Shown here one piece after another: positions 32,041 to 48,007 of a DNA stretch of 59,319 nucleotides. A program made the translations under genes and the position numbers. Under the pieces are notes generated by a model that saw nothing but the letters and a program-made list of their open reading frames with translations, searched no databases and was not told the DNA's origin. The first letter of the stretch is position 1, and every line of letters begins with the position of its first letter. Origin of the DNA: Accumulibacter sp. (GTDB lineage: Bacteria; Pseudomonadota; Gammaproteobacteria; Burkholderiales; Rhodocyclaceae); contig NZ_JAMTDQ010000095.1 in the NCBI RefSeq assembly GCF_023806635.1, positions 1 to 59,319 of the forward strand, in the 5' to 3' direction.

Positions 32041-32829
32041 ATGACCCGGAAAGCATTTCTCGCAAGCCGATCTGACCGCCTGGGATTCTCAACCGGCGGT
32101 GCGATCAGTTCCCGCACGGCCATGCTGGCTGAATTCGAGGCCCTTGCTGCTGCCGTGCCACCTGATGCCGGGGCGCACGCCTACCGCCAAGCCATCGTCA
32201 ACGACAACGTTCTCCACAAGGCCACCGCTGCCAACCGCGAAAAGACCTTCAAGTTTCTGCGCCGTCTCTACGCCCTCGATCCGGCGACCTGCCTGTTCCG
32301 CGAGCTGCGTCGCCTGCATCGCTTTGCAGCCTGTGATTCCCGGCTCCTGGTGGGTCTGCTGGCCATGGCACGGGAGCCGATCTTGCGGGAATGTCTCGGC
32401 AGCGTGCTGGCAGTTCCCATTGGCGAGAGCATCGGTCGACAGCATTTTGAAGACTGGATGCGTCGTCATGCGCCCGGCCAGTATTCCGAATCCATGTTCG
32501 TCAGCTTCAGCCACAACCTCTATGGTTCCTTCCATCAGTTCGGCTATCTCGGCGAATCGGTCGGCAGCGCGCGCAGTCGGATCCACCCCAAGGTCGGTAT
32601 CGCATCGACTACCTACGCCGCCTTCCTCGATTGGCTGCACGGCATGAGCGGCGTCTCGCTGCTGCAGGGCCCTTATTCGAGGGCGCTCGATGTCGGCACC
32701 GATGAGCACATTGCCGTGCTCACTGCGGCAGGCCGTCAAGGCCTGCTCAGGGCCGCCTATTCGGGCGGCGTGCTCGATCTGGCCTTTCCCGGCTTCCTGA
32801 AACCTGATGAAGCGAGGCTCACGGCATGA
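32041..32829 (+). CDS. brxA: BREX type 1 protein BrxA (DUF1819)
   Basis: This 262-aa first gene of the BREX locus is a DUF1819 protein: FSTGGAISSRTAMLAEFEALAA, NVLHKATAANREKTFKFLRRLYALDP, LLVGLLAMAREPILRECLGSVL, FSHNLYGSFHQFGYL. BrxA is a small helical DNA-binding protein needed in some BREX systems. The assignment leans on the operon context as much as on the sequence. The ATG at 32041 is the first in frame and has only a weak ribosome-binding site; ATG 32122 is possible. Its stop overlaps the brxB start (ATGA). Confidence 0.9.
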   Translation: MTRKAFLASRSDRLGFSTGGAISSRTAMLAEFEALAAAVPPDAGAHAYRQAIVNDNVLHKATAANREKTFKFLRRLYALDPATCLFRELRRLHRFAACDSRLLVGLLAMAREPILRECLGSVLAVPIGESIGRQHFEDWMRRHAPGQYSESMFVSFSHNLYGSFHQFGYLGESVGSARSRIHPKVGIASTTYAAFLDWLHGMSGVSLLQGPYSRALDVGTDEHIAVLTAAGRQGLLRAAYSGGVLDLAFPGFLKPDEARLTA

Positions 32830-33380
32830 ACCTGGCGCAGACCATACTTGAACGCCTCAAGGAACACCTCGCCTTGCCATGGCCGGACAACGTCTCTCCC
32901 CGCGAACGCGTCGTGATGGTGGTCTATCCCCCCAGCGACGAGCGCAAGCTGCGCCGCCTGATCGAAACCGGCGAGTTCGCCAGCGAGATCAGGACCACCG
33001 GCCACGGCTGGACCGAATATGACCTGGCGACTGAGTTCTCTGCCTGGCTGGCGGACTACGAATACCGCGACCGCTACCTCAGTCGTCCCGAGCGGCTCTG
33101 GGACGATGGCGGCAATGTGCGTGGCCTGGAGGAATACCTGGTGAACAGGATCGCCGACATCACCCGCAGCCTGACCGTCAATGACGTGCTGGCCCTGGTC
33201 GGCAGTGGCGGCCTGTTTGGCCTGCACAGTGTCTCGACTCTGATCGAGCACATCGAGAGCCACATTCCGGGTCGGCTGGTGATCTTCTTTCCCGGCGAGC
33301 ACGACGCCAGGAGCAACAGTTATCGCCTGCTCGGCGCCAAGGACGGCTGGGGCTACCTCGCCGTTCCCATCACCTGCTAG
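32826..33380 (+). CDS. brxB: BREX type 1 protein BrxB (DUF1788)
   Basis: This 184-aa protein has DUF1788 features: RVVMVVYPPSDERKLRRLIE, TTGHGWTEYDLATEFSAWLA and LIEHIESHIPGRLVIFFPGEHDARSNSYRLL. BrxB is essential for BREX defence in tested systems, and its biochemical role is unknown. It is coupled to brxA by ATGA and followed after 6 bp by brxC. Confidence 0.93.
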   Translation: MNLAQTILERLKEHLALPWPDNVSPRERVVMVVYPPSDERKLRRLIETGEFASEIRTTGHGWTEYDLATEFSAWLADYEYRDRYLSRPERLWDDGGNVRGLEEYLVNRIADITRSLTVNDVLALVGSGGLFGLHSVSTLIEHIESHIPGRLVIFFPGEHDARSNSYRLLGAKDGWGYLAVPITC

Positions 33381-33386
33381 TTGCCG

Positions 33387-36300
33387 ATGACATCCACGAC
33401 GGACACCACGATGAAGAACCGCGACGTATTCGACAAGGACATCGACGCCTTCTCCCTCGAAAACCAGGGGGTCGCCAAGGTCGATGAGGCACTTGACGAG
33501 CAGCAACGGCAAACCCTGCGCTTCGAACTGGAGACCTTCGTCTGCAGGGGCCACTATGAAGAAGGCCTGCATCGCATTCTCGACTCCTTCGCCGACACCC
33601 TGCGCAGAAGGCACGAATCGCCCCCCGCCTGGGTCTCCGGCTTCTTCGGCAGCGGCAAGTCGCACCTGGTCAAGATGGCCCGTGCGCTGTGGACGAACGA
33701 ACCCTTCGCCGATGGTCGCACGCCGCGCGACATCGCCCGGCTCCCCTCCTCGGTTGCGGACACCCTCAAGGAAATCGACACCCTGGCACGCCAGCGCAAG
33801 ACCACCCTGCGCGCTGCCGCCGGCACCCTGAGCCAGGGCGAAGGCGACAGCATCCGCAAGGCCGTGCTCAGCATCGTCTTCAAGGCCGTCGGCCTGCCTT
33901 CAAGGTTCGACGAAGCCAGGGCCCTGATGTGGCTTCGCGACGAGCGTATCGATGCGGAGGTGAATGCCACCCTCGCCGCGAAGAGTCGCAGCCTGGTGGG
34001 GGAGATCAAGAATCTCTATGTCTCGACCCATCTCCAGGACGCCATCCTGAAGGCCAAGCCGAGCCTGGCACGCGATGCGATTGAATTGGGCGATACCCTG
34101 GAAATGCAGTTCGCCACCAAGGGCGACATCACGCAAGACGACTTTCTGGCCTATTTCGGCAAGGCCGTCAGCCGCGACGGCGAGATGCCCATCTTCCTGC
34201 TGGTGCTCGACGAACTCCAGCAATACATCGCCGATAGCGCGGATCGCGCCATGCGCGTGCAGGAAGTCATCGAGAGCCTGAGCAAGCACTTCGATGGTCG
34301 CGTGCTGCTCATCGCCACCGGCCAGAGCGCCCTGACCGGCACTCCCGTGCTCTCCAAGTTGTTGGGGCGCTTTGCCGTGCAGGTGCAACTCGCCGATTCC
34401 GATGTCGAGGAAGTTCTGCGCGAAACCGTGCTGAAGAAGAAAGCCAGCAGCAGCCAGCCGCTCAAGGAACTGTTCGGCCCGGCGGGCTGCCTGGGCGAGA
34501 TCGCTGCGCATCTGCAGGGCAGCACTTTCGCGCATCGGCGCGACGATGAAGGGCTTCTTGGCCCCAGCTACCCGCTGCTGCCCACCCGGCAACGGCTTTG
34601 GGAGCGCGTCCTCGCCACCACCGACGCCAGCGGCACCGGCGTGCAGTTGCGCTCGCAGTTGCGCCTCGCCTTCGATGCCGTGCGCAAGAGCAAGGATGCG
34701 CAACTCGGGCACATCGTCGGCGGCGACTTCATCTACGACGAAATCCGCATGCGCCTGCGCCAGTCCAGCCAGATCAGCGCCGAGACCGCCAACGCCATCG
34801 ACAAGCTCGACGGCGCCAGGGACGAACGTTCGCGGCTCAAGGCCCGCGCCCTCAAGGCCGTCTTCCTGCTGACCCGCGTCAGCAGCAACTCGGCCCAGGA
34901 TACCGGCCTGCACACGGATGCCCAGACCATCGCCGATGTCCTGGTCGATGACCTGACCCAACACAGTTCTGCCCTGCGCGGCGATGTCGCTGTCGTACTC
35001 GAAGAGCTGGTCGCGAAAGACCGCCTGCTGATGAAGGTGTCGGCAGGAGGCCTCGAAGAGTACCGCCTGCAAACCAAGGAAAGCGCCGACTGGTTTGCCT
35101 ACCAAAGGGGCGAGGAAGAGGCTCTGCGCAGCGACCCATCGGCCTACGAAAGCAAGATCCGCGAGCAACTCATGCAACGGGCCGCTGAGCAGATACGCAA
35201 GCTGGCCATACCGCAGGGCGTCAGCCGCGAGATTCGCCGCCTCAAGATTCACAGCGATCCGATCGCCGCCCCCAGGGTCGAGGGCGACGTGCCCGTCTGG
35301 CTCCGTTCCGACCTGGATGGCACCCAGGCCAAAGAAGTCTTGGTGGATGCAACGCGTGCCGGGATCAACTCGGCCATCGTCTTCGCCCACGTCGCCCTGC
35401 CGCGCAAGGACGAACTGGTGCGCGCCATCATCACCCGCGAAGCCGCCGAGCGCACCCTCGGCCATTTTGGCGAGGCGCAGACCCCGGAAGGCCTGGAGGC
35501 GCGCAATGCTCTGGCCAAGCAGAAGCGCGACGCCGAGTCTCGCGCCGATGAACTGATCAAGCTGGCGCTTGAGCAAGGCCAAGTCGTCCAGGGCGGCGGC
35601 CAGGTCGTCGATGAGGGCAGCACCCTCGATGCCCGGCTCAAGAAGGCCGGTACCGACGCCACAACCCGGCTGTTCCGCAAGTTCGCCATGGTCGATGCCC
35701 CCGGCTGGGGCAAGGCGCTGGAAGACGCTCAGCGCGGCCTGACCAGCGCGCTGGAGAAGGTCGGCCATGCCGGCGCTCCGCAAACCCATCCGGGAGCACA
35801 AGAGATTCTCGCCTTCATCGGACCGGGCGCCGCCAAGGGCAACAAGCTGCGCGAGCGCTTCATGGCTGAACCCTACGGCTGGTCGCAGGATGCCGTCGAT
35901 GCACTGCTCGCCACGCTGTTCCATGTCGGCCAGTTGCGCATCATCAATGCCAGCGGCGCACCCTGGCCCCCCGGCAGGTTCATCGTCCGCGATGTCACCG
36001 CCAGTACCTTCTCCCGCGAGACTGCGCCGCTATCCAACGACGAGAAACGCGCCATCGCCCGGCTGGTCAAGTGCAAGCCCGACGAAGCCGAAGCGTGCGC
36101 GTCCGAGTTTGTCACCAAGCTCAAGGACGCGCTGACCCGTGCCACGGGCGCCGCGCCGCGTCCAGAAGCGCGGCCCAACGAACTGATCGACGAACTCTCG
36201 GCCACCTCCGGCCGCGATCTGGTCAAACGTCTCGCTGAAGAAGAAAAGGCCGCCGCCGACTTGCTCGCTGCCCTCGAAGCCCAAGCCAGCAAGATCGCCC

Positions 36301-36878
36301 AACGCGAACCGCAGTGGCAGCAACTCAATGACCTGCTCGGCTACATGAAAGGGCGCGCCGAAGCCGCCGCGCTCACCACCGAACGCGATGCCATCCGCGG
36401 CGGCCGCCTGCTGCTCGACGATCCGGACAAAGTCGAGCCGCTCGTCCATCGCGCCGCCGATGCCCTCCGTGCCGTCATGAACAAGAATTTCGGCGCCTAC
36501 CGCAGCGAATACGAACGGTGTACCCAGGAACTCGAAGAGGCGCCCCAGTGGGGCAAACTGGCGCCGGAAGATCGCGCTGCCATCCTGCGCGATATCCAGC
36601 TATCCGCCCCGGAAGACACCCCCAAGCTCGGCACCCTGGCCGAATTGCTCGACTCGCTGGCGGCCTGCTCGCCGCAGCGTTGGGCGGAGAAACGCGACGC
36701 CCTCGGCGGCCAACTGAGCCGTGCCTTTACCCTGGCCGCCCAGAAGCTCGAACCCAAGGCGCAGCCCGTAAGCGCACCGCACCGCATCCTGTACAACGAG
36801 GCCGACCTCGATGCCTGGCTGGCCGAGGTTCGACAAACCGTGCTGGCGAAGCTGTCCGACGGGCCGGTGCAGCTTTGA
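33387..36878 (+). CDS. brxC: BREX type 1 ATPase BrxC
   Basis: This 1163-aa large P-loop ATPase (about 1200 aa in the family) has Walker A GFFGSGKSH at residues 85-93 and a Walker B-like IFLLVLDELQQYIAD near residue 270. LIATGQSALTGTPVLSKLLGRF follows, and the C-terminal third is a coiled-coil-rich region with many Glu/Lys/Ala. BrxC is thought to power or assemble the host-DNA-marking and phage-blocking complex. The ATG at 33387 is preferred over a TTG at 33381; ATG 33411 (MKNRDVF) would resemble the start of other BrxC proteins. About 90 bp of AT-rich regulatory DNA follows the stop, unlike the tight junctions elsewhere in the operon. Confidence 0.94.
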   Translation: MTSTTDTTMKNRDVFDKDIDAFSLENQGVAKVDEALDEQQRQTLRFELETFVCRGHYEEGLHRILDSFADTLRRRHESPPAWVSGFFGSGKSHLVKMARALWTNEPFADGRTPRDIARLPSSVADTLKEIDTLARQRKTTLRAAAGTLSQGEGDSIRKAVLSIVFKAVGLPSRFDEARALMWLRDERIDAEVNATLAAKSRSLVGEIKNLYVSTHLQDAILKAKPSLARDAIELGDTLEMQFATKGDITQDDFLAYFGKAVSRDGEMPIFLLVLDELQQYIADSADRAMRVQEVIESLSKHFDGRVLLIATGQSALTGTPVLSKLLGRFAVQVQLADSDVEEVLRETVLKKKASSSQPLKELFGPAGCLGEIAAHLQGSTFAHRRDDEGLLGPSYPLLPTRQRLWERVLATTDASGTGVQLRSQLRLAFDAVRKSKDAQLGHIVGGDFIYDEIRMRLRQSSQISAETANAIDKLDGARDERSRLKARALKAVFLLTRVSSNSAQDTGLHTDAQTIADVLVDDLTQHSSALRGDVAVVLEELVAKDRLLMKVSAGGLEEYRLQTKESADWFAYQRGEEEALRSDPSAYESKIREQLMQRAAEQIRKLAIPQGVSREIRRLKIHSDPIAAPRVEGDVPVWLRSDLDGTQAKEVLVDATRAGINSAIVFAHVALPRKDELVRAIITREAAERTLGHFGEAQTPEGLEARNALAKQKRDAESRADELIKLALEQGQVVQGGGQVVDEGSTLDARLKKAGTDATTRLFRKFAMVDAPGWGKALEDAQRGLTSALEKVGHAGAPQTHPGAQEILAFIGPGAAKGNKLRERFMAEPYGWSQDAVDALLATLFHVGQLRIINASGAPWPPGRFIVRDVTASTFSRETAPLSNDEKRAIARLVKCKPDEAEACASEFVTKLKDALTRATGAAPRPEARPNELIDELSATSGRDLVKRLAEEEKAAADLLAALEAQASKIAQREPQWQQLNDLLGYMKGRAEAAALTTERDAIRGGRLLLDDPDKVEPLVHRAADALRAVMNKNFGAYRSEYERCTQELEEAPQWGKLAPEDRAAILRDIQLSAPEDTPKLGTLAELLDSLAACSPQRWAEKRDALGGQLSRAFTLAAQKLEPKAQPVSAPHRILYNEADLDAWLAEVRQTVLAKLSDGPVQL

Positions 36879-37437: not shown

Positions 37438-37439
37438 GC

Positions 37440-38027
37440 ATGGTGTCCATCAACCTCGACTATCCCCCCGGCGCCACGCCGCTGGATGGCGACGAACTCA
37501 CCAGCATGATTCCCGGCCACATCACCACCCAGGGCGAGTTGAACGAGTGGGAGCAACTCAACATCGTCCAGGGCGAGCAGTGGGCCAGGAAGCAGCGCAA
37601 GGACATCCTTACCGAGTCCTTTGTCCGCCAGTTGCACCAGCAGATCTTCGGCGAAACCTGGAAGTGGGCGGGCGAGTTCCGCAAGTCCGACAAGAACATC
37701 GGCGTCGACTGGCTCAAGATCGGCGTCGAACTCAAGAAGCTGCTGGATGACACGCACTACCAGGTCGAGCACGGCAGCTTCCCGGCGGATGAGATCGCCA
37801 TCCGCTTCCATCATCGCCTGGTCGCCATCCATCCCTTCCCCAACGGCAATGGCCGCCATGCGCGCCTGATGGCCGACCTGCTCATCGAGCGCCTTGGCAA
37901 GCCGCGTTTCACCTGGGGCAGTCAGAGCTTGGTGGATGCCAGTGCCACCCGGCAAGCCTATATCGCCGCCCTGCAAGCCGCAGACCGGCGCGACATCGCG
38001 CCCTTGCTCGCCTTTGCCCGTAGTTGA
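37440..38027 (+). CDS. mobile mystery protein B (Fic-domain protein)
   Basis: This 195-aa protein has the Fic motif HPFPNGNGRHAR beginning at residue 131 (HxFxxGNGRxxR), which is complete. It predicts AMP- or other nucleotide transfer to a protein hydroxyl. The N-terminal segment PPGATPLDGDELTSMIPGHITTQGELNEWEQ is the family hallmark. I do not see a clean (S/T)xxxE(G/N) inhibitory motif within this chain, so inhibition may come from protein A. It starts 2 bp after protein A. A toxin-like or regulatory role inside the BREX operon is inferred. Confidence 0.87.
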   Translation: MVSINLDYPPGATPLDGDELTSMIPGHITTQGELNEWEQLNIVQGEQWARKQRKDILTESFVRQLHQQIFGETWKWAGEFRKSDKNIGVDWLKIGVELKKLLDDTHYQVEHGSFPADEIAIRFHHRLVAIHPFPNGNGRHARLMADLLIERLGKPRFTWGSQSLVDASATRQAYIAALQAADRRDIAPLLAFARS

Positions 38028-38034
38028 GGACGAC

Positions 38035-41000
38035 ATGAAGCAAACCCTCTCCCGCGGCCACCGCAAGATCCTCGAAGCCACCGTCGCCCAGGCGCGCGCT
38101 ACCGCTGAAGCGGGTGCCGAAAAGGCCCTCAAGGCGCTGGCCGTTGGTGCAAAGGAAGCCCCCGGCCACGCCAGCGATGCCCAGAAAAAGCTGCGCGTCC
38201 GCCTGCGCGCGCATGGCCGGGCGCTCGGCGACCTGCTGCACCCCGACGACACGCAAGCCATCGACCACCTCGTCACCGAGATCGCCTACGAGCACTGGCA
38301 CCGCATGCTCTTCGCGCGCTTCCTCGCCGAAAGCGATCTGCTCATGCACCCGGATGGCTACCCGGTCAGCCTGGCCGACTGCAAGGAAGATGCGGAGAGT
38401 TTCGACCCCCCGGCGCGCAGTGAATGGGAAGTCGCCGGTCGCTACGCCGCGCGCATGCTGCCCAACGTTTTCCGTCCCGACAGCCCGGCGCTGGCGATCC
38501 AGATGCCGCTGGAAACCGAGCAGGCGCTCGAAGCCCTGCTCGCCAAGCTACCCGCCACCGTCTTCCAAGCCGACGACAGCCTGGGCTGGAGCTACCAGTT
38601 CTGGCAGGCGCCGAAGAAGGAAGAAGTGCAGCGGCAGATGAAGCAGGCCGGCACCAAGGTCGGTGCCGACGAACTGCCCGCCGTGACCCAGCTCTTCACC
38701 GAGCAGTACATGGTCGCCTTCCTGCTCGAGAACGCGCTGGGCGGCTGGTGGCACCGCTGCCACCCGCACATGGCCTTGCCGGTGGAGATGCCCTACCTGC
38801 GCTTTCTTCCCTCTCCCTCCGGGAGAGGGGCTGGGGGCGAGGGCGTTTCCATGCCCAAACATCACGACATCCCGTCCGAGCATATCGCCTTCGCCCGCCA
38901 GCTTCGCGCCACACAAACCGACGCCGAAGACCTGATCTGGTCGTTGCTTCGCAATCGCCGTCTGGCCGATGCCAAGTTTCGTCGTCAGCATCCACTCGGA
39001 CCCTACGTCGTTGATTTCTACTGCCACGAAAAGCGGCTGGCCATCGAGCTTGATGGCGGGCAGCACAGTGAAGAAGCAGCCAAGGCACATGATGCCCGTC
39101 GCGATGACTACCTGGCTGGCCACGGGATTCGCGTCCTTCGCTTCTGGAACAATCAGGTACTGGCAGAAACGGAGTCTGTGCAAGAGGTTATTTGGCAGGC
39201 GCTGCACGATGACTGCGCCCTCACCCCAACCCCTCTCCCGAAGGGAGAGGGGCTCTACGGCGCCGTCCCGCCAGCAGCGACTTCTCTCCCTCACATCGGG
39301 CGAGAGTCCGGAGGCAAGCATGCAGTTCTCCCCTCTCCCCCCGGGAGAGGGGCCGGGGGTGAGGGCGAACCCGTCGCCGGAACTTTCCCGGCCTGGCCCG
39401 ATACCCTGTCCCAGTTCAAGCTGCTCGACCCCTGCGCCGGTTCCGGCCACTTCCTCGTCTCGGCCTTCCACTACCTGGTGCCGCTGCGCCGAGCCACCGA
39501 ACAGCTCTCGGTGCGCGATGCTGTCGACCGCGTGCTCGCCGACAACCTGCACGGCCTCGAACTCGATGCCCGTTGCGTCGAGATCGCTGCCTTCGCGCTG
39601 GCGCTAGCCGCCTGGCGTTATCCCGACCTAGACTCCCCTCTCCCCCCGGGAGAGGGGCCGGGGGTGAGGGCAAAACCCATCGGCTACCGCCCCCTGCCGC
39701 GCCTCAACATCGCCTGCGTCGGCGTCGCGCCGCGCAGCAGACGCGCCGACTGGCTCAAGCTCGCCGGCGGCGACGAACGACTCGAAGGCGGCATGGCCGC
39801 GCTCTACGCCCTGTTCCAGAAAGCCCCGGAACTCGGCAGCCTCATCGACCCGATGGCCGCCACGCGCGGCGATCTGCTCGATGCGCATTGGCAAGAACTC
39901 GAATCGCGGCTGGAGCAGGCTTTACTCCCCTCTCCCAGCGGGAGAGGGGCCGGGGGTGAGGGCGCAGGCGACGATCAGGACATCGAAGCCCGTGTCGCCG
40001 CGCAGGGCATGGTGCACGCCTCGCGTATCCTGACGCGCAAGTATCACCTGGTCATCACCAACCCGCCTTACCTCGGCGCGGGGCAGCACGGCCCGGTGCT
40101 CAAGGATTTCTGCGAGGAACACTACAAGGCCGCCAAGGGTGATCTCGCCAACGTGTTTCTGGAGCGCAGCCTCAAGCTCTGCGCGCCGGGCAGTGCGGTG
40201 TCATTTGTGATGCCGCAGAACTGGCTGTTTCTCAAGAGCTACCAGAAACAGCGCGAGCACCTGCTCAAGTTCGCCACCTGGAACCTGCTGGCGCGGTTGG
40301 GGGCGGGCGCTTTCGAGACCATCATTGGCGAGGTGGTCAACGCCGTCCTGCTGACACTCACCCACGCCCGTCCCGCCGAGGATCACCCCCTGGGCGGCGT
40401 CGACGCCAGCGCGCCGAAGACGCCGGAGGACAAGGCGACGCTGCTGCGCGAGGGCGAGGTGGTGACGGTAGGGCAGATGGGGCAGTTGAGAAATCCCGAT
40501 GCCAGAATCACCTTCGAAGCAGCTATGGATTTAGCTCTGCTCGCGCAGGCTGCTGAAGGTGTTCATGGCTTCGGAAGCAAGGATTCACCACGATTCTTCC
40601 GGCAATTCTGGGAATTGAACGGCTTCGAAACAGACTGGCAATTAATGCAAACCACCGTAGAGAAAACCGGCCTTTGGGGCGGCTATGAGCAGGCGGTGTA
40701 TTGGCAACAAGGAAAGGGAATTCTCGCAGAAATGGGCAAGGCTGGTCTTGCAATACCGGCAGGGAAAAGTGCCTGGGGTAAATTGGGGGTGGCTGTCAGT
40801 CAGATGCGAAACTTGCCTTGTGCCTTACATCTTGGAGAGATATTCGACAAGAATGTGGCTGTGGTATTGCCGAACGATTCAAAGCATCTACCGGCGATCT
40901 GGTGTTTTTGCTCGTCTTCAAAGTACAACGAAGCAGTTCGCAAAATTGATCAGAAGGTCAACGTAACGAACACTACCTTGGTCAAGGTGCCCTTCGACCT

Positions 41001-42018
41001 CACCTACTGGCAACTAGTCGCCGCCGAACGCTACCCCCACGGCCTGCCCAAACCCTATTCCGACGACCCGACGCAGTGGATTTTCCACGGCCACCCGAAA
41101 CCGGCCAGCGATCCGCTGCAAGTCGCCATTGCCCGTCTGCTCGGCTACCGCTGGCCTGCGGAAAGCGCCCTCACCCCCGGCCCCTCTCCCGCGAGGGGGC
41201 GAGGGGAGCAATACATGGAACTCTCGGACGAGGCACGCGCCTGGATCAAGCGCTGCGGCGAACTCGACGCGCTCACCGACGACGATGGCATCGTTTGCCT
41301 GCCCGCCGTGCGCGGCGAAGCGGCGGCGGAATCGCGGCTGCGCGCCTTGCTGGCCAAAGCCTTCGGCAGCGACTGGTCGGCGGCACGCGAAAGTCAGTTG
41401 CTGCGCGACGCGGGCTGCGACGGCCTGCCGCTGGCGCAATGGCTGCGCGACAAGTTCTTCGAGGAGCACGTCGCGCGCTTCCAGAAGCGCCCCTTCATCT
41501 GGCACGTCTGGGACGGCCACAAGGAAGGCTTCGCGGCGCTGGTGAACTACCACCTGCTGACGCGCGAGAAGCTCAACACCCTGATCAACCTCTATCTGGG
41601 CGACTGGATCACCCAGCAAAAACGTGCCGTCGATGCCGGTAACTCGGATGCCACGCTCAAGCTCGCCAAGGCCGAGGCACTGAAGGCGCAACTCGAAGCC
41701 ATCCTGGCAGGCGAACCGCCCTACGACATCTTCGTGCGCTGGAAGCCGCTGCACCTGCAGCCGCTCGGCTGGGACCTCGACCTCAACGACGGCGTGCGCA
41801 TGAACATCCGCCCCTTCGTCGAGGCCGGCGTGCTGCGCATCCCCCGCGCCAAGCTCGGCATCAAATGGGACGCGGATCGCGGCAAGGATGTCGCCTCCGC
41901 CCCTTGGTTCAAGCTCGGTCCGACCTACAATCAGCCAGAAGGCACACGCATCAACGACCACCACACCACGCTGGCTGAGAAGAAAGAGGCGCGGGAGAAA
42001 CTTAAGGTGAAAGCATGA
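38035..42018 (+). CDS. pglX: BREX type 1 adenine methyltransferase PglX with DUF559 insertion
   Basis: This 1327-aa N6-adenine methyltransferase marks host DNA and is required for phage exclusion. Motif I is LLDPCAGSGHF (463-473), and catalytic NPPY begins at N676 (VITNPPYLGAG). The conserved N-terminal helical part is residues 1-258. Between MPYLRF and AGTFPAWP, residues about 259-445 are extra: a DUF559 domain (start M273; FRRQHPLGPYVVDFYCHEKR, AIELDGGQHSEEA, GIRVLRFWNNQV) bounded by palindromic elements. Three more elements sit at residues about 534-546, 631-643 and 1045-1058. All keep the frame open. The likely target-recognition region (residues about 815-990) uses AT-richer codons than its surroundings, as if exchanged. 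The family is normally about 1200 aa, so the excess equals the insertions. ATG 38035 has GAGG upstream; the stop overlaps the next ATG. Confidence 0.93.
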   Translation: MKQTLSRGHRKILEATVAQARATAEAGAEKALKALAVGAKEAPGHASDAQKKLRVRLRAHGRALGDLLHPDDTQAIDHLVTEIAYEHWHRMLFARFLAESDLLMHPDGYPVSLADCKEDAESFDPPARSEWEVAGRYAARMLPNVFRPDSPALAIQMPLETEQALEALLAKLPATVFQADDSLGWSYQFWQAPKKEEVQRQMKQAGTKVGADELPAVTQLFTEQYMVAFLLENALGGWWHRCHPHMALPVEMPYLRFLPSPSGRGAGGEGVSMPKHHDIPSEHIAFARQLRATQTDAEDLIWSLLRNRRLADAKFRRQHPLGPYVVDFYCHEKRLAIELDGGQHSEEAAKAHDARRDDYLAGHGIRVLRFWNNQVLAETESVQEVIWQALHDDCALTPTPLPKGEGLYGAVPPAATSLPHIGRESGGKHAVLPSPPGRGAGGEGEPVAGTFPAWPDTLSQFKLLDPCAGSGHFLVSAFHYLVPLRRATEQLSVRDAVDRVLADNLHGLELDARCVEIAAFALALAAWRYPDLDSPLPPGEGPGVRAKPIGYRPLPRLNIACVGVAPRSRRADWLKLAGGDERLEGGMAALYALFQKAPELGSLIDPMAATRGDLLDAHWQELESRLEQALLPSPSGRGAGGEGAGDDQDIEARVAAQGMVHASRILTRKYHLVITNPPYLGAGQHGPVLKDFCEEHYKAAKGDLANVFLERSLKLCAPGSAVSFVMPQNWLFLKSYQKQREHLLKFATWNLLARLGAGAFETIIGEVVNAVLLTLTHARPAEDHPLGGVDASAPKTPEDKATLLREGEVVTVGQMGQLRNPDARITFEAAMDLALLAQAAEGVHGFGSKDSPRFFRQFWELNGFETDWQLMQTTVEKTGLWGGYEQAVYWQQGKGILAEMGKAGLAIPAGKSAWGKLGVAVSQMRNLPCALHLGEIFDKNVAVVLPNDSKHLPAIWCFCSSSKYNEAVRKIDQKVNVTNTTLVKVPFDLTYWQLVAAERYPHGLPKPYSDDPTQWIFHGHPKPASDPLQVAIARLLGYRWPAESALTPGPSPARGRGEQYMELSDEARAWIKRCGELDALTDDDGIVCLPAVRGEAAAESRLRALLAKAFGSDWSAARESQLLRDAGCDGLPLAQWLRDKFFEEHVARFQKRPFIWHVWDGHKEGFAALVNYHLLTREKLNTLINLYLGDWITQQKRAVDAGNSDATLKLAKAEALKAQLEAILAGEPPYDIFVRWKPLHLQPLGWDLDLNDGVRMNIRPFVEAGVLRIPRAKLGIKWDADRGKDVASAPWFKLGPTYNQPEGTRINDHHTTLAEKKEAREKLKVKA
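38809..38845 (+). repeat. palindromic element R1 inside pglX (forward)
   Basis: Core ccctctccc/gggagaggg with a 3-bp centre, followed by the arm ctgggggcgagggcg. Translated in frame as PSPSGRGAGGEG. Its gaggg lies 7 nt before the ATG at 38851 of the DUF559 unit and could act as a ribosome-binding site. Confidence 0.85.
38851..39219 (+). other. DUF559 (Vsr-like nuclease fold) unit inserted in pglX
   Basis: About 120 codons from an internal ATG encode a complete DUF559 domain: SEHIAFARQLRATQTDAEDL, LWSLLRNRR-type helix, FRRQHPLGPYVVDFYC, LAIELDGGQH and LRFWNNQVLAETESVQEVIW. The family has the PD-(D/E)XK/Vsr-like fold; the acidic residues in VDFYC and IELDGGQH are present. There is no stop codon, so it runs on into pglX. 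It lies between inverted copies R1 and R2 of the palindrome. Confidence 0.85.
39217..39253 (-). repeat. palindromic element R2 inside pglX (inverted)
   Basis: Reverse orientation relative to R1: the long arm precedes the ccctctcccgaagggagaggg core. Translated as ALTPTPLPKGEGL. It closes the DUF559 unit on the right. A degenerate relative (ctctccctcacatcgggcg) occurs near 39283-39302. Confidence 0.8.
39328..39367 (+). repeat. palindromic element R3 inside pglX (forward)
   Basis: Forward copy with core ctctccccccgggagag and arm gggccgggggtgagggc. Translated as LPSPPGRGAGGEGE. Identical to R4 over 39 bases. It marks the right end of the inserted block, after which normal pglX sequence resumes with AGTFPAWP. 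Confidence 0.85.
39633..39671 (+). repeat. palindromic element R4 inside pglX (forward, other frame)
   Basis: Same 39-base sequence as R3 but read in a different frame, giving DSPLPPGEGPGVRAKP. It lies between AAWRYPDL and IGYRPLPRLN in the methyltransferase part. Confidence 0.85.
39925..39964 (+). repeat. palindromic element R5 inside pglX (forward)
   Basis: Variant core ctctcccagcgggagag with the same arm as R3 and R4. Translated as LPSPSGRGAGGEGAG, about 95 bases before the NPPY codons. Confidence 0.85.
41166..41208 (-). repeat. palindromic element R6 inside pglX (inverted)
   Basis: Inverted copy with a slightly different core (ccctctcccgcgaggggg). Translated as ALTPGPSPARGRGE in the C-terminal part of PglX. 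Confidence 0.8.
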
Positions 42019-43187
42019 AACGACTGACTCTGAAGAACGTCGGCCAGGTCAAGGAAGCCGACCTGCATTTCGGCGACCTCACCGTTCTGGTAGGTCCCCA
42101 GGCCAGCGGCAAGAGCATCAGCCTGCAATGGCTCAAGCTGCTCGCCGACACCGGCCTGATTCAGCGCCAGATGAAGACCTATGGTCTGGATTACGACGGC
42201 AGCCTCAAGCAGTTTCTCGACGTCTATTTCGGCGAGGGCATGCAGTCGATCTGGAAGGAACACAGTGCCATCCAGTTAGATGGCAAGGCGCTGAATACAG
42301 AATGGCGCATCGGCCGCTTGCAGCCGGAAAAACCGGAGTCGGCGTTCTTTATTCCCGCCCAGCGCGTGATTGCCCTGACCAGCGGCTGGCCCAGGCCGTT
42401 TCAGGGCTACAGCGTCGGCGATCCTTACACCGTGCGTGCCTTCAGCGAGGGTTTGCGCCTCTTGATGGAGCGCGAATTCACGGGGTCGGGTCCGCTGTTC
42501 CCCAAGTCTAATCGCCTCAAGAGCGACTACCGCAAGCTGTTGCAGCAGAGTGTCTTCGCCAACTTTTCTCTGTCCGTGGATAAGGTGCAGGCGCAGAAAC
42601 GCCTGGTCCTTCAGGCCGATGAGAAGCCGCTTCCCTACATGGTCTGGTCGGCCGGGCAGCGTGAATTCGTGCCGCTGCTGTTGGGACTTTACTGGCTGAT
42701 GCCGCCGGCTAAGGTGGCACGCCGGGGCGGAATCGAATGGGTGGTGATCGAAGAACTGGAAATGGGTCTGCATCCGCGCGCGATTTCCGTCGTGTTGCTT
42801 CTGGTACTCGAACTGATGTCGCGTGGCTACAAGGTGTGCCTATCAACCCACTCGCCGCAAGTGCTCGAACTGGTTTGGGCGTTGGAGGTGTTACGAAAGC
42901 ACAAAGGGAGCGCCGACGATCTGCTCAACCTCTTCGATGCGCCGCACAGCGCCGGTTTGCGCGAGATGGCGAGAGCGGCGCTCGGCAAGACCTCCAAGGT
43001 CTATTACTTCGATCCGGCGGGAACGGCGAAGGACATCACCGATCTCGACCCCTCTTCCGCCGAAGCGCAGGAGGCTAGTTGGGGCGGCCTGCTGGAATTC
43101 AGCGCCCGAGCCAACGAGACCGTGGCCAAGGCAGTGGCCAACTCGCCCGAGTTCGCGTCCGGCGATCTATTCGTGGAAAGCAAATGA
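42015..43187 (+). CDS. ABC/SMC-type AAA ATPase accessory to BREX
   Basis: This 390-aa protein has Walker A VGPQASGKS at residues 27-35, a signature-like VWSAGQREFVPLLLGL, Walker B WVVIEELEMGLHP and H-loop LSTHSPQVLEL, all in the order of OLD/RecF-like AAA_15/AAA_21 ATPases. It lacks the Toprim domain of OLD. Its start overlaps the pglX stop (ATGA), and its own stop overlaps the next gene the same way, so it is translated as part of the BREX operon. It is not one of the six core type 1 genes. It probably forms a two-gene effector or control module with the following small protein. Confidence 0.85.
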   Translation: MKRLTLKNVGQVKEADLHFGDLTVLVGPQASGKSISLQWLKLLADTGLIQRQMKTYGLDYDGSLKQFLDVYFGEGMQSIWKEHSAIQLDGKALNTEWRIGRLQPEKPESAFFIPAQRVIALTSGWPRPFQGYSVGDPYTVRAFSEGLRLLMEREFTGSGPLFPKSNRLKSDYRKLLQQSVFANFSLSVDKVQAQKRLVLQADEKPLPYMVWSAGQREFVPLLLGLYWLMPPAKVARRGGIEWVVIEELEMGLHPRAISVVLLLVLELMSRGYKVCLSTHSPQVLELVWALEVLRKHKGSADDLLNLFDAPHSAGLREMARAALGKTSKVYYFDPAGTAKDITDLDPSSAEAQEASWGGLLEFSARANETVAKAVANSPEFASGDLFVESK

Positions 43188-43630
43188 GCTTTGCCGCGGA
43201 TGTAAAGGCGACTCCGCATCTCGATGGAGCGTTTTGCAAAGGTTTAGGTGCTTTGTTGGCAGTCGACCGGGCGCGTGTCACAAAGGCAGCATCGACAAGA
43301 CTCCCGGGTAGCGTGAATGTGGATGCAGCCTTGCGAGCCAGTCAACCCGATGCCGCCCGCTGGGATTACGTTGTCGGAAAGCGGCAGGGAAATCGCGAGC
43401 ATCTGCACTGGATTGAGGTACACCCCGCTGGTTCTACTGGGAATATCAACGAGGTTGCGGCCAAGCTCGATTGGCTTGCAGAGTGGATGAGAGCGACCCC
43501 GCTTGCGGCCTATCCGAAGCAGATCGTGTGGATCGCCAGCGGCAAGTCGGCCTTCAATCAACGTAGTCCACAATTGCGCGCCCTGGCCAATCGGGGCTTG
43601 CGCTATGGCGGTAACCATCTGAGCCTGTGA
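43184..43630 (+). CDS. small protein paired with the ATPase, unknown (possible nuclease-like)
   Basis: This 148-aa protein is not recognised as a named family. Notable features: AARWDYVVGKRQGNREHLHWIEVHPAG is one block at residues about 57-83, in which D61 and the E-V-H of WIEVHPA could be the acidic pair of a degenerate PD-(D/E)XK core. NINEVAAKLDWLAEWM forms a helix and KQIVWIASGKSAFN a strand-turn. Coupled by ATGA to the ATPase and 2 bp before pglZ. ATPase-plus-small-partner arrangements are frequent in defence systems, so an effector or its inhibitor are both plausible; neither is shown. Confidence 0.7.
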   Translation: MSFAADVKATPHLDGAFCKGLGALLAVDRARVTKAASTRLPGSVNVDAALRASQPDAARWDYVVGKRQGNREHLHWIEVHPAGSTGNINEVAAKLDWLAEWMRATPLAAYPKQIVWIASGKSAFNQRSPQLRALANRGLRYGGNHLSL

Positions 43631-43632
43631 CC

Positions 43633-45972
43633 ATGAAAGCGCAAACTGTTCTCGAAGCCTTGACCATTCGCCTGAAGGAGCAGACAAAGCGTTTCAACCC
43701 GGCGCTGGAATCTGCCCCCGTCGCCATCCTCTGGACGGACGAAAGACGCGAGTGGGAACCCGTGCTGCCCAGGATCAAGGAAGCGCTACCGGAGTTGTTT
43801 GCGCTGGGCGCCTATGAACCCGACCAGCGTAGCGGCCCCGGCGTCTGGCTGCGCATGGTGGCCGATGGCCAGGCTGGTTCGGTCGACCCCGAGAGGACAG
43901 CCATTCTCTATCTGCCTGGCGTAGGCAACGGCCAACTGCGCACCGACCTGCGCGGCCTGAAGGGCGATCCGCAACTCGCACCGCTCGCCGAACTGCAATA
44001 CCGGGGCTGCTTCTGGCGACAGGAAAACGGCAAGGACTGGACGCTGCGCGCCTTTCTCGAATCCCGGCGCGGTGGCCTGGGGCTGCAGGTTTCGGCCAGC
44101 CAGGAAGCGGCACAGGCGCTCAAGGCGGCGATGGGCAAGCTGCTGATGCAGAATCTGCCCGCCCTCGATGCCATGGCCATCGACGAGCGCACTCTCAACG
44201 ACCTGATCAACCCGGCACCCGACGAAACCGTGCTGCGCTGGCTGACCGCGCCGGAAGCGACCCGAGCCGAACATGGCACCTCGTGGGAGAGTTTCGCGGC
44301 CAACGCGAAGAAGCGTTTCGGCGTCGATCTGGCGAAGGGACCGATGGAGGTCGCGCAGCGCATACTCGCCAGCAAGTCCGGCGAGGCGGCGCACCCGCTG
44401 TGGGAGAAGTATGTTGCCCACTGGCACAGCTATCCCGATGCCTACGAGGTGTTCCGGGGCATCGCGCCGCCCGACCTGTTGCAGGGGGCGGAACGCTATC
44501 CGCGTGAGAACGACGCCGATGAAAGGCGCCTGGCCGACGAGTTGCTGAAGGCCGCCAGCCTGGAGCCGGTGGCCGCTGCCCAGGCGGTGCTGGCCGCCGA
44601 AAGCAGGCACGCCGCGCGGCGGGAAGCGCTGTGGGCACGGCAGGGCCACGCCCCCCTGGCCACAGCCTTGGCCGACCTCGCACTCATCGCCAAGGCCTTT
44701 CTTGAGCCAGTGGCGGGGGGGAAGCCCGCCGAGGCGGCCCGACGCTATGCGGAGAACGGCTGGCGTGTCGATGCCGCCGCTCGTGGTGCCATGGCGATGG
44801 CCCAGCAGGCGGAGCTGGAAAAGCCGATCCACGCCGTGTTGGTCGCCCTTTACCGCCGCTGGCTGGAAAAGCAGGCCGAAGGTTTTCAGTGGATGGTGAA
44901 GAAGGACGGCTATCCGACCTGGAACCTGCCGGCGGTGGCCGATGGCACGGTGGTACTGTTCGTCGATGGCCTGCGCTTCGATCTGGCACGCGAACTGGAG
45001 GCCACGCTGCACAAGGACAACGGCTTGACGGTCGGGCTGGAACCCGGCTTCACCAGCATTCCCTCGGTGACCAGCAGCGGCAAGGTCTGGGTCTCTCCCG
45101 CCCGCAAGCTCGCCGATGGCGGCAATGGCGGTGACTTCGCGCCCAGGCTGCAACTGGGGAAAACCGAGGGCGCCTACACGGCAGCCAAGCTGCGCAAGGC
45201 GATGGAGCCGGAGGGCGTCGCCGTTGTCGATACCGAGAATCCGAGCCTCGCCTACGGCAGGGGCTGGGCGGAGTTTCCCGGCGACATCGATAGCGACGGC
45301 CATGCCAAGGGCCGGAAACTGGCGCGTGCCATTCCGGCCCACCTCGACGATCTGGCCAAGGCCATCCGTCGCCTGCTGAATGCCGGCTGGAAGCAGGTCT
45401 GGGTGGTGACCGACCACGGCTGGTTGCTGCTGCCGGACGGCCTGCCCAAGGCCGAACTTCCCGCCAGGCTGACCGAAACGAAGTGGGGCCGCTGCGCGGT
45501 GCTCAAGGATGCGGCGGCGGACGCCGACTGGCTGGTGTTGCCGTGGAGCTTCGACCCCGCCGTGCGCGTGGCGCTGGCTCCCGGCATCTCGGCGTTTTCC
45601 AGTGGCCGCGAATACGACCATGGTGGCTTGAGCTTGCAGGAGTCGGTGGTGCCCTTCCTGCGCGTCCAGCGCCATGGACCGGTCGCCGGGCAGCCGAGGC
45701 TGGTCGCGGTGAGTTGGAACATCCGCAGGACGATCTGCACGGTGAGGGCGAACGATGCCGCCGGTCTGACCGTCAGCATTGAACGGCTGGGGTCGACAAT
45801 CGGCGATGGGGAAGCCATCGACAACGACGGCAAGGGCCGCGTGGTGTTGGAGGAAGTGGATGACTTGATCGGCGAGCAGATCGCCGTGGTGCTGCGGAGC
45901 GACGGCCAGAAGGTGGCCGAGGAACGCTTGAATTTTGGAGAGGCGTGGGAAGGGAGCGCGAATGCAGCTTGA
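43633..45972 (+). CDS. pglZ: BREX type 1 protein PglZ (alkaline-phosphatase superfamily)
   Basis: This 779-aa hallmark BREX protein has a PglZ domain with metal-binding blocks TVVLFVDGLRFDLARELE (around residue 440), PSVTSSGKVWVSPARKL and WVVTDHGWLLLP (around 595). It probably hydrolyses phosphate or phosphodiester bonds; PglZ proteins of this superfamily have been proposed as nucleases. The ATG at 43633 is chosen; a GTG at 43627 would overlap the previous stop. The C-terminus overlaps brxL by 11 bp. Confidence 0.93.
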   Translation: MKAQTVLEALTIRLKEQTKRFNPALESAPVAILWTDERREWEPVLPRIKEALPELFALGAYEPDQRSGPGVWLRMVADGQAGSVDPERTAILYLPGVGNGQLRTDLRGLKGDPQLAPLAELQYRGCFWRQENGKDWTLRAFLESRRGGLGLQVSASQEAAQALKAAMGKLLMQNLPALDAMAIDERTLNDLINPAPDETVLRWLTAPEATRAEHGTSWESFAANAKKRFGVDLAKGPMEVAQRILASKSGEAAHPLWEKYVAHWHSYPDAYEVFRGIAPPDLLQGAERYPRENDADERRLADELLKAASLEPVAAAQAVLAAESRHAARREALWARQGHAPLATALADLALIAKAFLEPVAGGKPAEAARRYAENGWRVDAAARGAMAMAQQAELEKPIHAVLVALYRRWLEKQAEGFQWMVKKDGYPTWNLPAVADGTVVLFVDGLRFDLARELEATLHKDNGLTVGLEPGFTSIPSVTSSGKVWVSPARKLADGGNGGDFAPRLQLGKTEGAYTAAKLRKAMEPEGVAVVDTENPSLAYGRGWAEFPGDIDSDGHAKGRKLARAIPAHLDDLAKAIRRLLNAGWKQVWVVTDHGWLLLPDGLPKAELPARLTETKWGRCAVLKDAAADADWLVLPWSFDPAVRVALAPGISAFSSGREYDHGGLSLQESVVPFLRVQRHGPVAGQPRLVAVSWNIRRTICTVRANDAAGLTVSIERLGSTIGDGEAIDNDGKGRVVLEEVDDLIGEQIAVVLRSDGQKVAEERLNFGEAWEGSANAA

Positions 45973-48007
45973 TGCCCTGGACCGCAAGGCCGCCGAAGCC
46001 TTCGATGGCTACATCGTCCGCAAGGACCTGGTACGCCAGTTTTCGCGCCAGTTTCCGGTGCCTACCTATGTGGTCGAGTTCATGCTGGGCCGCTACTGCG
46101 CCACGATCGACGAGAGCGAGATTCAGGAGGGGCTGGCCATCGTCCAGCGCCAGCTTTCCGAGCGCACGGTACGCGCCGGCAACGAAGAACTGATCAAGTC
46201 TGTCGCCCGTGAAAAGGGCCAGGTGCGCATCATCGACATCATCACCGCGCGGCTGGACGCCAGGACCGATTCCTATGTCGCCGAGCTGCCCTCGCTCAAG
46301 CTGCGTGACGTGCGCATCTCGGCGGCACTGGTCACCGAGCACCAGCGGATGCTGACCGGCGGTTTCTATGCCGAGGTGACGCTGGGCTACGACGCCACCA
46401 TCGCCCAGGAGAAGAACGGCAGGCCCTTCGGCATCGACGGCCTGCGTGCCATCCAGCTTTCGCAGCGCGACGTACTCGACAAGATGGCCGCTGCGCGGGC
46501 CAAGCTGACGACGGCGGAGTGGAAGGACTTCCTGCTGCGCTCCATCGGCCTGGAACCGGCGCAACTGCCCGAGCGCAACAAGGACGCGATCCTGCTGCGC
46601 ATGATTCCCTTCGTCGAACGCAATTACAACCTGGTCGAGATCGGCCCGCGCGGCACCGGCAAGTCGCACCTGTTCCAGCAGGTCTCTCCCTACGCGCATC
46701 TGGTCTCCGGCGGCAAGGCCACCGTGGCGCGCATGTTCGTCAATAACGCCAACGGCCAGCGCGGCCTGGTCTGCCAGTACGACGTGGTGTGCTTCGACGA
46801 GGTGTCGGGCATCTCCTTCGACCAGAAGGACGGCGTGAACATCATGAAGGGCTACATGGAGTCGGGCGAGTTCTCGCGCGGCAAGGAAAGCATCCGCGCC
46901 GATGGCTCCATCGTCATGGTGGGCAACTTCGATGTCGATGTCGAACACCAGCAGCGCATTGGTCACCTGTTCCAGCCGCTGCCGCCAGAAATGCGCGACG
47001 ACACCGCCTTCATGGATCGCATCCATTGCTACCTGCCAGGATGGGACGTGCCCAAGCTCAAGCCGGACATCTTCACCGATCACTTCGGCCTGGTCAGCGA
47101 TTTTCTCTCCGAGTGCTTCACTCAGTTGCGGAACCAGAGTCGGCTGGCCACATTGCAAAACCGCGTTTTCTTCGGCGGGGCGCTGTCGGGCCGCGACATC
47201 AACAGCGTCAACAAAACCGTCAGCGGCTTGTTGAAGCTTCTCTATCCCGGCCAGGATGCTCAGGTCAGCGAGGAAGACCTTGAATGGGCCGTGCGCCTGG
47301 CCTTGGAAGTGCGTCGGCGCGTCAAGGAACAACAGAAGCGCATCGGCGCTGCCGAGTTCCGCAACACGCTCTTCAGCTATACCCTGGGCGCGGAAGGCGT
47401 CGAGAAATTCGTCTCGACGCCGGAACTGCAAAGTCAGGGCGGCATCGGTGACGAGCCGCTCGAAGCCGGACAAATCTGGACGCTCTCGCCGGGTGGCCAG
47501 GATGAGCATCCCGGCCTGTTCCGCCTCGAAGTGACCGAAGGGCCAGGCAGTGGCGTGCGCGTGCTCAACAAGCCGGTGCCGCAAGCCTTCCAGGAATCCA
47601 TCCGCTGCGCCGAGCAGAACCTCTACGCCAGAGCCAAGCAACTGGTCGGCGACCGCGATCCGCGCGCCCATGAGTTTTCCGTGCAGTTGCGCGGCTTTGA
47701 TGCCGCGAAGAGCGGTGCCAAGACCGGCGTGGCTTCATTGATCGCGCTGTGCAGTGCCCTGCTGCGCAAGTCGGTTCGTGGCGGTTTGGTTGTCGTCGGC
47801 GAGGTCACGCTGGGTGGCACCATCGAGCCGATCCACAACGCCGTCAGCCTGGCCGAACTCGCGGTCGAGAAGGGGGCGAACTCCTTGTTGTTGCCGGTTT
47901 CCTGCCGCCGCCAGTTGTTCGACCTGTCCGACGACATGGCGACCCGGCTGGATGTGGAGTTCTACCAGGATGCCAGGGATGCGCTGTTGAAGGCGCTGGT
48001 GGATTGA
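45962..48007 (+). CDS. brxL: BREX type 1 Lon-like ATPase BrxL
   Basis: This 681-aa protein has an N-terminal DUF4357-like/BrxL domain (AFDGYIVRKDLVRQFSRQFPVPTYVVEFMLGRYCA), an AAA+ core with Walker A IGPRGTGKSHLFQQ and Walker B VVCFDEVSGISFD, then a Lon-protease-like fold (LVVVGEVTLGGTIEPIHNAVSLAELAVEKGA). Where Lon has its catalytic-serine motif GPSAG this protein reads SGAKTG, so proteolysis is doubtful. BrxL is a DNA-binding ring ATPase. The ATG at 45962 has AGGGAG upstream and overlaps pglZ. Last core BREX gene; a 100-bp gap separates it from convergent mnmE. Confidence 0.93.
   Translation: MQLDALDRKAAEAFDGYIVRKDLVRQFSRQFPVPTYVVEFMLGRYCATIDESEIQEGLAIVQRQLSERTVRAGNEELIKSVAREKGQVRIIDIITARLDARTDSYVAELPSLKLRDVRISAALVTEHQRMLTGGFYAEVTLGYDATIAQEKNGRPFGIDGLRAIQLSQRDVLDKMAAARAKLTTAEWKDFLLRSIGLEPAQLPERNKDAILLRMIPFVERNYNLVEIGPRGTGKSHLFQQVSPYAHLVSGGKATVARMFVNNANGQRGLVCQYDVVCFDEVSGISFDQKDGVNIMKGYMESGEFSRGKESIRADGSIVMVGNFDVDVEHQQRIGHLFQPLPPEMRDDTAFMDRIHCYLPGWDVPKLKPDIFTDHFGLVSDFLSECFTQLRNQSRLATLQNRVFFGGALSGRDINSVNKTVSGLLKLLYPGQDAQVSEEDLEWAVRLALEVRRRVKEQQKRIGAAEFRNTLFSYTLGAEGVEKFVSTPELQSQGGIGDEPLEAGQIWTLSPGGQDEHPGLFRLEVTEGPGSGVRVLNKPVPQAFQESIRCAEQNLYARAKQLVGDRDPRAHEFSVQLRGFDAAKSGAKTGVASLIALCSALLRKSVRGGLVVVGEVTLGGTIEPIHNAVSLAELAVEKGANSLLLPVSCRRQLFDLSDDMATRLDVEFYQDARDALLKALVD

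Follow-up and report, generated by a model that had tools for sequence, protein, structure and literature searches.

Organization of the pglX locus

The DNA stretch analyzed here, referred to as the window, is 59,319 nucleotides long and contains a BREX cluster composed of BrxA, BrxB, BrxC, PglX, an ATPase, PglZ and BrxL. The coordinates of the genes and repeats are collected in Table 1. As stated in the preliminary description of this DNA, the pglX gene is a single open frame that carries a whole DUF559 domain. Pfam assigns PF04480 to PglX residues 284-390 with an E value of 6.9e-37, and the best PADLOC PglX profile is split into two stretches, the larger of which corresponds to residues 445-1324. 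The inserted stretch is located between the sequences MPYLRF and AGTFPAWP and covers residues 258-447, or about 190 residues. Eleven residues are invariant across 35 aligned DUF559 proteins, window included, and all of them are intact in the window copy. The internal ATG of the DUF559 frame was also described correctly: a GAGGG belonging to the tail of a palindrome ends 7 nt upstream of it (38839-38853). A GnGAGGG sequence is found 5-15 nt upstream of a start candidate in 23 of 143 units, a raw, uncontrolled count. Two further frames located between brxC and pglX (36967-38027) resemble, by eye, a helix-turn-helix protein and a Fic/Doc-like protein.

Table 1. Genes and palindromic units of the pglX region (window coordinates)
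Feature	Position	Strand	Description
brxA, brxB, brxC	32041..36878	+	Host BREX context; brxA 32041-32829, brxB 32826-33380, brxC 33381-36878
pglX with in-frame insertions	38035..42018	+	1,327 aa; single open frame; Eco57I/N6 methylase domains; PADLOC PglX PDLC02528
R1	38809..38844	+	Palindrome (at 38809) and purine-rich tail; left end of DUF559 unit, tail inward
DUF559 frame from internal ATG	38851..39260	+	Pfam match about 38884-39204; fold by model and PDB match
R2	39217..39252	-	Inverted palindrome (at 39231) and tail; right end of DUF559 unit, tail inward
R3	39330..39366	+	Further palindrome unit (palindrome at 39331) at close of inserted stretch
R4	39635..39671	+	Single palindrome insertion (palindrome at 39636), missing from relatives
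R5	39927..39964	+	Single palindrome unit (palindrome at 39928) in a poorly conserved pglX stretch
R6	41165..41206	-	Degenerate inverted palindrome unit
ATPase, pglZ, brxL	42015..48007	+	Host BREX context; ATPase of PADLOC type PDC-M56A 42015-43187, pglZ 43627-45972, brxL 45935-48007

Palindromic units inside pglX

The exact palindrome CCCTCTCCC-N3-GGGAGAGGG is present five times in the window, once in each of the units R1 to R5, the chance expectation being 0.15 with up to 3 mismatches allowed. A 23-nt block that includes the tail is found at 38821, 39343, 39648 and 39940 on the forward strand and at 41168 on the reverse strand, the latter within R6, for an expected number of 0.01. R1, R3, R4 and R5 are oriented alike and R2 and R6 are inverted. 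The window units display three blocks in line, namely a pyrimidine arm, a purine arm and a third block, and no GTAG tag was seen at the repeat in the window sequence. The bounding of the DUF559 unit by inverted palindromes, as originally proposed, was verified with exact copies at both ends, R1 and R2, whose tails point inward. R3, formerly taken as the closure of a single block, comes 77 nt after R2 and is, as are R4 to R6, a further unit in the same gene; the palindromes of R4 and R5 and the degenerate R6 are additions to the three repeats noted initially. By eye, a decayed sequence resembling a palindrome, possibly an eroded unit, can be made out in the 77 nt between R2 and R3 (39253-39329).

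The strict palindrome was searched for in the entire 4.47 Mb genome and all of its 5 copies lie within pglX. The tail block, which is present in 5 exact copies in pglX, has one exact lookalike elsewhere (contig C57) and two others with two mismatches. A native origin of the repeats was rejected, no strict copy being found beyond pglX. The gene and its repeats are probably of outside origin because the strict palindrome is absent from the rest of the genome, and the repeats are probably foreign to it as far as the strict-palindrome and tail-block patterns tell. The assembly is a draft of 119 contigs, read here as assembly alone, and an artefact or a chance arrangement was considered on these grounds. 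The probability of either is negligible: the insert leaves the frame open and is flanked on either side by PglX homology, the palindrome is expected only 0.15 times in the window, and like arrangements occur in unrelated genomes, as detailed below.

The empty site in PglX relatives

Twelve PglX relatives were aligned, consisting of the best 7 on plasmid-collection records and the best 5 from the same order, in which 33 of 300 genomes gave a match. Two of the twelve do not span the insertion point, and residues 258-447 are missing in the protein alignment from all ten that do. This comparison had been recommended in the preliminary description, with a DUF559 domain common to most PglX homologs named as the contrary case, which was not encountered among these ten. 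The two nearest relatives in the order are 61% and 58% identical, the latter coming from the same family; their sequences at the site are MPYLRMTADGTPAAGP and LEYLRTLEDGTPAAGKF, respectively, in place of MPYLRF, the roughly 190 residues and AGTFPAWP of the window. R4 is likewise an insertion with respect to these relatives. As judged by the protein alignment, the DUF559 block in pglX is an insertion. Its nucleotide boundaries are blurred at 58-61% identity to the nearest relatives, and no target-site duplication was seen in pglX, where the boundaries are so blurred, nor at the acyltransferase-lpd site and the two E. coli BoxC sites described below.

The palindromes had been regarded as pre-existing landing sites for the nuclease unit. 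This idea was dropped, as the protein alignment of the empty relatives has no space for a palindrome and the rest of the genome is devoid of strict copies. The palindromes behave as the ends of the DUF559 unit, which is itself part of a widespread association between DUF559 and palindromes.

Palindromes beside DUF559 genes in other phyla

The genome collection was scanned with the window domain, yielding 65 related loci, 64 of which have full flanks. Hairpins with perfect, pyrimidine- or purine-rich arms were then recorded within 160 nt of DUF559. Both flanks of the domain carry such hairpins in 35 of the 64 loci; among 3,834 positions drawn at random from these loci, 3 do so. A 7-mer common to the upstream hairpin and the downstream one was found in 24 of these 64 loci and at 0 of the 3,834 random positions. 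A second, independent set consisted of the 30 loci that matched PF04480 best in a draw of 299 genomes of the phylum. A hairpin occurs on either side in 28 of these 30 loci (48 of 724 random positions) and hairpins occur on both sides in 12 (7 of 724). The third set comprised 40 further copies from nine multi-copy genomes, 34 of which were located by motif and 6 were not. The corresponding values for the 34 located copies are 23 against 21 of 174 for either side and 15 against 0 of 174 for both sides.

The arms vary by lineage (CCCTCTCCC, CCTTCTCCC, TCCCTCCC, CCTCCCTT and others). In Bacteroidetes, arms of the CCCCTAAAGGGG types are arranged as inverted repeats across the DUF559 gene; the Bacteroidetes motif matched 5 of the 22 genomes tried, all from ArgB-type loci, and 0 of 6 other Bacteroidetes-type loci. 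The window unit is one case of a general association, in which DUF559 relatives of many phyla are flanked by pyrimidine/purine palindromes.

Unit integrity and enzyme-palindrome covariation

A total of 153 loci were searched with an HMM, which identified DUF559 in 152. Enough flank was available in 151 of them and, after removal of 5 identical proteins, 146 units were compared by aligning each upstream flank to the reverse complement of every downstream flank. Relative to mismatched pairings, the inverted-repeat pairing of the two flanks of the same unit ranked in the 99th percentile or higher for 69 of the 146 units and in the 95th or higher for 100; it was unbeaten in 57. In the multi-copy genomes, a unit's own pairing beat every sibling pairing in 30 of 37 cases. 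For the window unit, three other downstream flanks outscored its own. In the controls, the 99th percentile was reached by 36 units in direct orientation, which is permitted by the self-complementary nature of the hairpins, and by 2 in the reversed control.

A hairpin as defined for the covariation analysis is present in 102 of the 152 units, about a third being without one. Protein similarity is correlated with hairpin similarity within genomes (stratified Mantel r 0.74, p 0.001, 35 pairs from 5 genomes), and the same correlation is observed across 30 loci consisting of the window and the first-set loci with a hairpin (r 0.44, p 0.0015). This covariation is consistent with specific recognition, or with the joint descent of enzyme and palindrome as one block. 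In the protein tree, the nearest copies to the window DUF559 are those in valyl-tRNA synthetase, asparagine synthetase and HsdM, with support that is not strong. Three sibling pairs of DUF559 genes gave no DNA match with blastn, and no recent duplication of the gene is apparent in these three pairs.

Dispersed palindromes and doublets

A strong DUF559 match (E up to 1e-20) was obtained in 77 of the 299 genomes, the window genome included. At least two copies of the first motif, CCCTCTCCC-N2-8-GGGAGAGGG, are present in 52 of these 77 genomes against 16 of the 222 others, and 2,515 of its 2,938 copies reside in the 77. Within families, the Mantel-Haenszel odds ratio is 44.8 for at least 2 copies (p 1.3e-9, 16 families holding both kinds of genomes), 9.0 for at least 1 copy and 25.0 for at least 5 copies. 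The exceptions among the 299 genomes are 21 with strong DUF559 without the first motif and 13 with at least five palindromes without strong DUF559. A second motif, ATCTCCCCC-N2-8-GGGGGAGAT, was predicted from the DUF559 flanks of one other genus. Eight genomes of that genus hold 84, 183, 76, 115, 137, 0, 1 and 30 copies of it, and eight DUF559 genomes rich in the first motif hold none. Two other DUF559 genomes of the family have 3 and 4 copies, three further exceptions have 0, and three genomes of the family without strong DUF559 have 0, 14 and 0. The second motif accounts for 6 of the 21 exceptions, with at least 30 copies each; G507, G509, G563, G454 and G500 have 0 or 1.

These distributions bear on the possibility that another machinery spreads the palindromes, the DUF559 genes being passengers that tolerate or prefer palindrome-rich places. 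The 13 palindrome-bearing genomes without strong DUF559 and the lack of recent duplication of the enzyme genes in the pairs tested could be accommodated in this manner. Such an explanation is quite unlikely given that the palindrome type is specific to the enzyme lineage even within one genome, that the flanks of a unit pair together and that both motifs track the enzyme between genomes.

Many of the listed copies of the second motif occur as inverted doublets with a distance of 88-91 nt. Eighteen doublets, taken from two genomes, were compared: identity is 94-95% at the ends, 55% in the spacer (34% after shuffling) and 36-44% in the outer flanks. The tails of the ATCTCCCCC doublets point outward, as opposed to the inward tails of the DUF559 units in the genome concerned and in the window. 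These doublets presumably resemble the RIME elements of rhizobia. The doublets of loci L263-L280 measure about 112 nt between the outer hairpin edges and display conserved outer tails and fast-changing spacers.

The gap between the dihydrolipoamide acyltransferase and lipoamide dehydrogenase (lpd) genes was followed in one genus, in which 58 of 59 genomes matched and 30 loci were fetched. DUF559 with hairpins at both ends (by eye) is present in 6 of the 30 loci and the gap measures 16 nt in 5; in others, traces of the right-hand hairpin were recognized by eye. A locus with a zero-length gap (L181) was left out. As read from these sequences, the unit was gained or lost at this site, and either direction fits.

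In-frame insertions in other genes

Among the 152 units, 38 are located in frames of at least 300 aa (window included). Thirty-two of these frames were scanned, the remaining ones being L019 (same protein as L020), L030, L221, L039, L048 and L057, and 11 scanned frames without a host domain were left uncounted. One locus, L260, was taken from the PF04480 match list of the 299 genomes, outside the 38. An insertion was considered as internal when host domains are found on both sides or when the host profile matches in two separate segments, of which the larger alone has a stated position. Nine internal insertions are supported on this basis: PglX, HsdR (L049, L029 and L260), HsdM (L262 and L031), a type ISP protein (L062), valyl-tRNA synthetase (L018) and asparagine synthetase (L259). 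Seven of the nine hosts are restriction-modification or BREX proteins. This share becomes 11 of 14 upon addition of the cases with one-sided profile support, namely HsdS L043 and L035, the DUF1156 methylases L020 and L021 and the flavoprotein L075. It should be taken as a lead and not as a rate, the cases having been picked for long frames from DUF559-chosen sets. The arrangement, first viewed as special to BREX, is not so, as DUF559 is also found in frame in HsdM, HsdR and HsdS. The asparagine synthetase case originates from a genome in the window's family: its DUF559 is 61% identical over 129 aa and the gene carries arrays of the same palindromes as the window.

A functional fusion, in which defense proteins such as PglX, HsdM, HsdR and HsdS acquired DUF559 as a nuclease domain and retain the palindromes as linkers or scars of this event, would agree with the share of restriction-modification and BREX hosts, with the open frame of pglX and with the 11 intact invariant residues. 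It is nevertheless unlikely. The DUF559 unit is also inserted in asparagine synthetase and valyl-tRNA synthetase and is mostly a separate gene, most PglX relatives are without it, and the cases were selected for long frames. The preliminary description had left the choice between a mobile nuclease unit and a new methyltransferase-nuclease fusion; the mobile unit is the best reading and a fusion is kept as a possible product of the gene.

A number of particular frames were observed. In an Ignavibacteria HsdR (L049:3669-7685), a GIY-YIG domain (residues 251-316) and DUF559 (443-547) place two nuclease domains in one restriction subunit. By eye, the HsdS linker position occupied by DUF559 is apparently identical in L043 and L035, which come from genomes belonging to separate phyla. 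In Chitinophagaceae-type genomes, DUF559 precedes acetylglutamate kinase (ArgB) within one frame in L041, L052, L061 and L065 according to Pfam, with similar joins seen by eye in L039, L048 and L057. It is also fused in frame ahead of PriA, RNase HI and MurB in L050, L067 and L135.

Enzyme fold

The AlphaFold2 model of the window DUF559 has a mean pLDDT of 88.5. Its best match among solved structures is 3hrl, a gonococcal DUF559 protein, followed by the catalytic domain of the homing endonuclease I-Bth0305I (E 6.8e-5 and 7.8e-5, with TM scores by target of 0.73 and 0.76). Further down the list come mitoribosomal chains, with E values from 1e-3 upward, and Vsr, with an E value of 0.02. The Vsr link of YcjD, a DUF559 protein of E. 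coli, was reported in 2005 (PMC1189080, partial text), and VsrA, a Caulobacter protein containing DUF559, causes a DNA damage response upon loss of methylation (PMC12907096, partial text). DUF559 could accordingly be regarded as a Vsr-like repair enzyme, the palindromes being regulatory or substrate sites devoid of movement, and the fold of the model and the VsrA response are in line with such a role. This is very unlikely, as a repair enzyme needs neither a gene located between inverted repeats, nor in-frame entry into unrelated genes, nor absence at orthologous sites. No palindrome association is mentioned in the available portions of these two sources.

A candidate mobile element

We estimate at about 0.7 the probability that the insert in pglX represents a copy of a short mobile element of wide distribution, made of a DUF559 nuclease gene ended by inverted copies of its cognate palindrome. 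From the insertion, the pairing of the flanks, the covariation and the dispersal with the enzyme, we infer that the nuclease may drive the movement. By likeness to RAYT/REPIN and homing systems, the process can be pictured as follows. The nuclease would recognize its own palindrome, as a hairpin, cruciform or triplex, and would nick or cut at the palindrome or at the target. Repair would copy the unit, or a gene-less doublet, to a new place. Insertions sparing the function of the host protein would survive in frame, as in pglX, from which a fused or separately started nuclease may still be produced. The lack of target duplication and of recent copies in the tested pairs argues against high activity of the element. 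RAYT genes, too, are old and present in few copies although their repeats spread, so that old, unduplicated DUF559 genes are compatible with the mobile-element reading.

REPINs are dispersed palindromes that form inverted doublets with conserved ends and a variable spacer, and the partner gene is flanked by repeats. The DUF559 system resembles REP/REPIN and RAYT in its short dispersed palindromes, in the repeats flanking a partner gene and, for the 18 doublets of the second motif, which are not the repeats of the window, in the inverted doublets with conserved ends and variable spacer. It differs by its partner, a DUF559 nuclease of Vsr fold instead of a Y1 HUH transposase, and by the lack of GTAG in the window units. 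The EDxHD homing endonuclease I-Bth0305I shares the catalytic fold and an in-frame insertion missing in relatives; that family has a long DNA-binding region (PMC3943268, partial text), whereas DUF559 is one small domain bounded by palindromes. Rickettsia palindromic elements are likewise found in frame in many genes, a likeness in working, kinship aside; they encode short peptides, whereas the window unit encodes a nuclease (PMC10969869, partial text).

No transposase of known class was matched by Pfam in the window unit, no self-splicing (Hint) domain was matched in PglX or in the scanned host proteins, and no intron or intein was seen at the DUF559 insertion. Because the test for the enzyme defining REPIN/RAYT systems, transposons and inteins was negative, the unit is proposed as an element of a new kind, possibly a small mobile one that would account for repeats hitherto unexplained. 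The pairing of DUF559 with palindromes was not found described in the literature searched, most subscription journals lying outside the reach of the search. Should the nuclease prove to be a passenger, the claim to a new kind of element falls. If the nuclease moves the unit, the latter would constitute a mobile-element machinery without transposase or recombinase and one route by which nuclease domains enter restriction-modification and BREX proteins. DUF559, a common protein family of unknown function, would thereby gain a candidate role.

YcjD and the BoxC repeats of E. coli

BoxC/PIT repeats have been known since the 1990s. Like the window units, these intrastrand triplex motifs consist of a pyrimidine arm, a purine arm and a third block, and E. 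coli BoxC adjoins ycjD, located between sapF and fabI. The record of strain KE47 (4.94 Mb, labelled plasmid) contains 11 strict BoxC matches, two of which lie behind the DUF559 match of ycjD, with starts at distances of 10 nt and 216 nt; no hairpin of BoxC type was noted upstream of the gene. Of 5,426 genomes, 3,333 cover 80% or more of a stretch containing ycjD, and ycjD replaces the eef operon in phylogroups A, B1 and C (PMC12817139, partial text). In vitro, BoxC folds into stable triplexes, and no mobility-giving activity was found near the BoxC/PIT repeats by Holder et al. (2015) (PMC4666352, partial text). The present case differs in that DUF559 is the proposed partner of the repeats and the triplex is only conjectured.

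We lean, with some reserve, toward the broader view that DUF559 proteins, including E. coli YcjD, are the missing mobilizers of BoxC/PIT-type repeats. The corresponding class of elements would have a lone Vsr/EDxHD-type nuclease and no transposase, would co-evolve with its terminal palindrome, yield doublets and enter genes in frame, most often those for restriction-modification and BREX. The pairing with DUF559 provides BoxC/PIT with a testable mobilizer candidate, available in the K-12 strain of E. coli through its ycjD gene. Two E. coli BoxC sites were tried as clean empty sites and rejected: both are polymorphic, the other alleles hold different, partly REP-like sequence (by eye), and no clean footprint was found at either. 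The BoxC pattern has 0 matches in the gonococcal record. By eye, the gonococcal DUF559 is flanked by hairpins related to BoxC.
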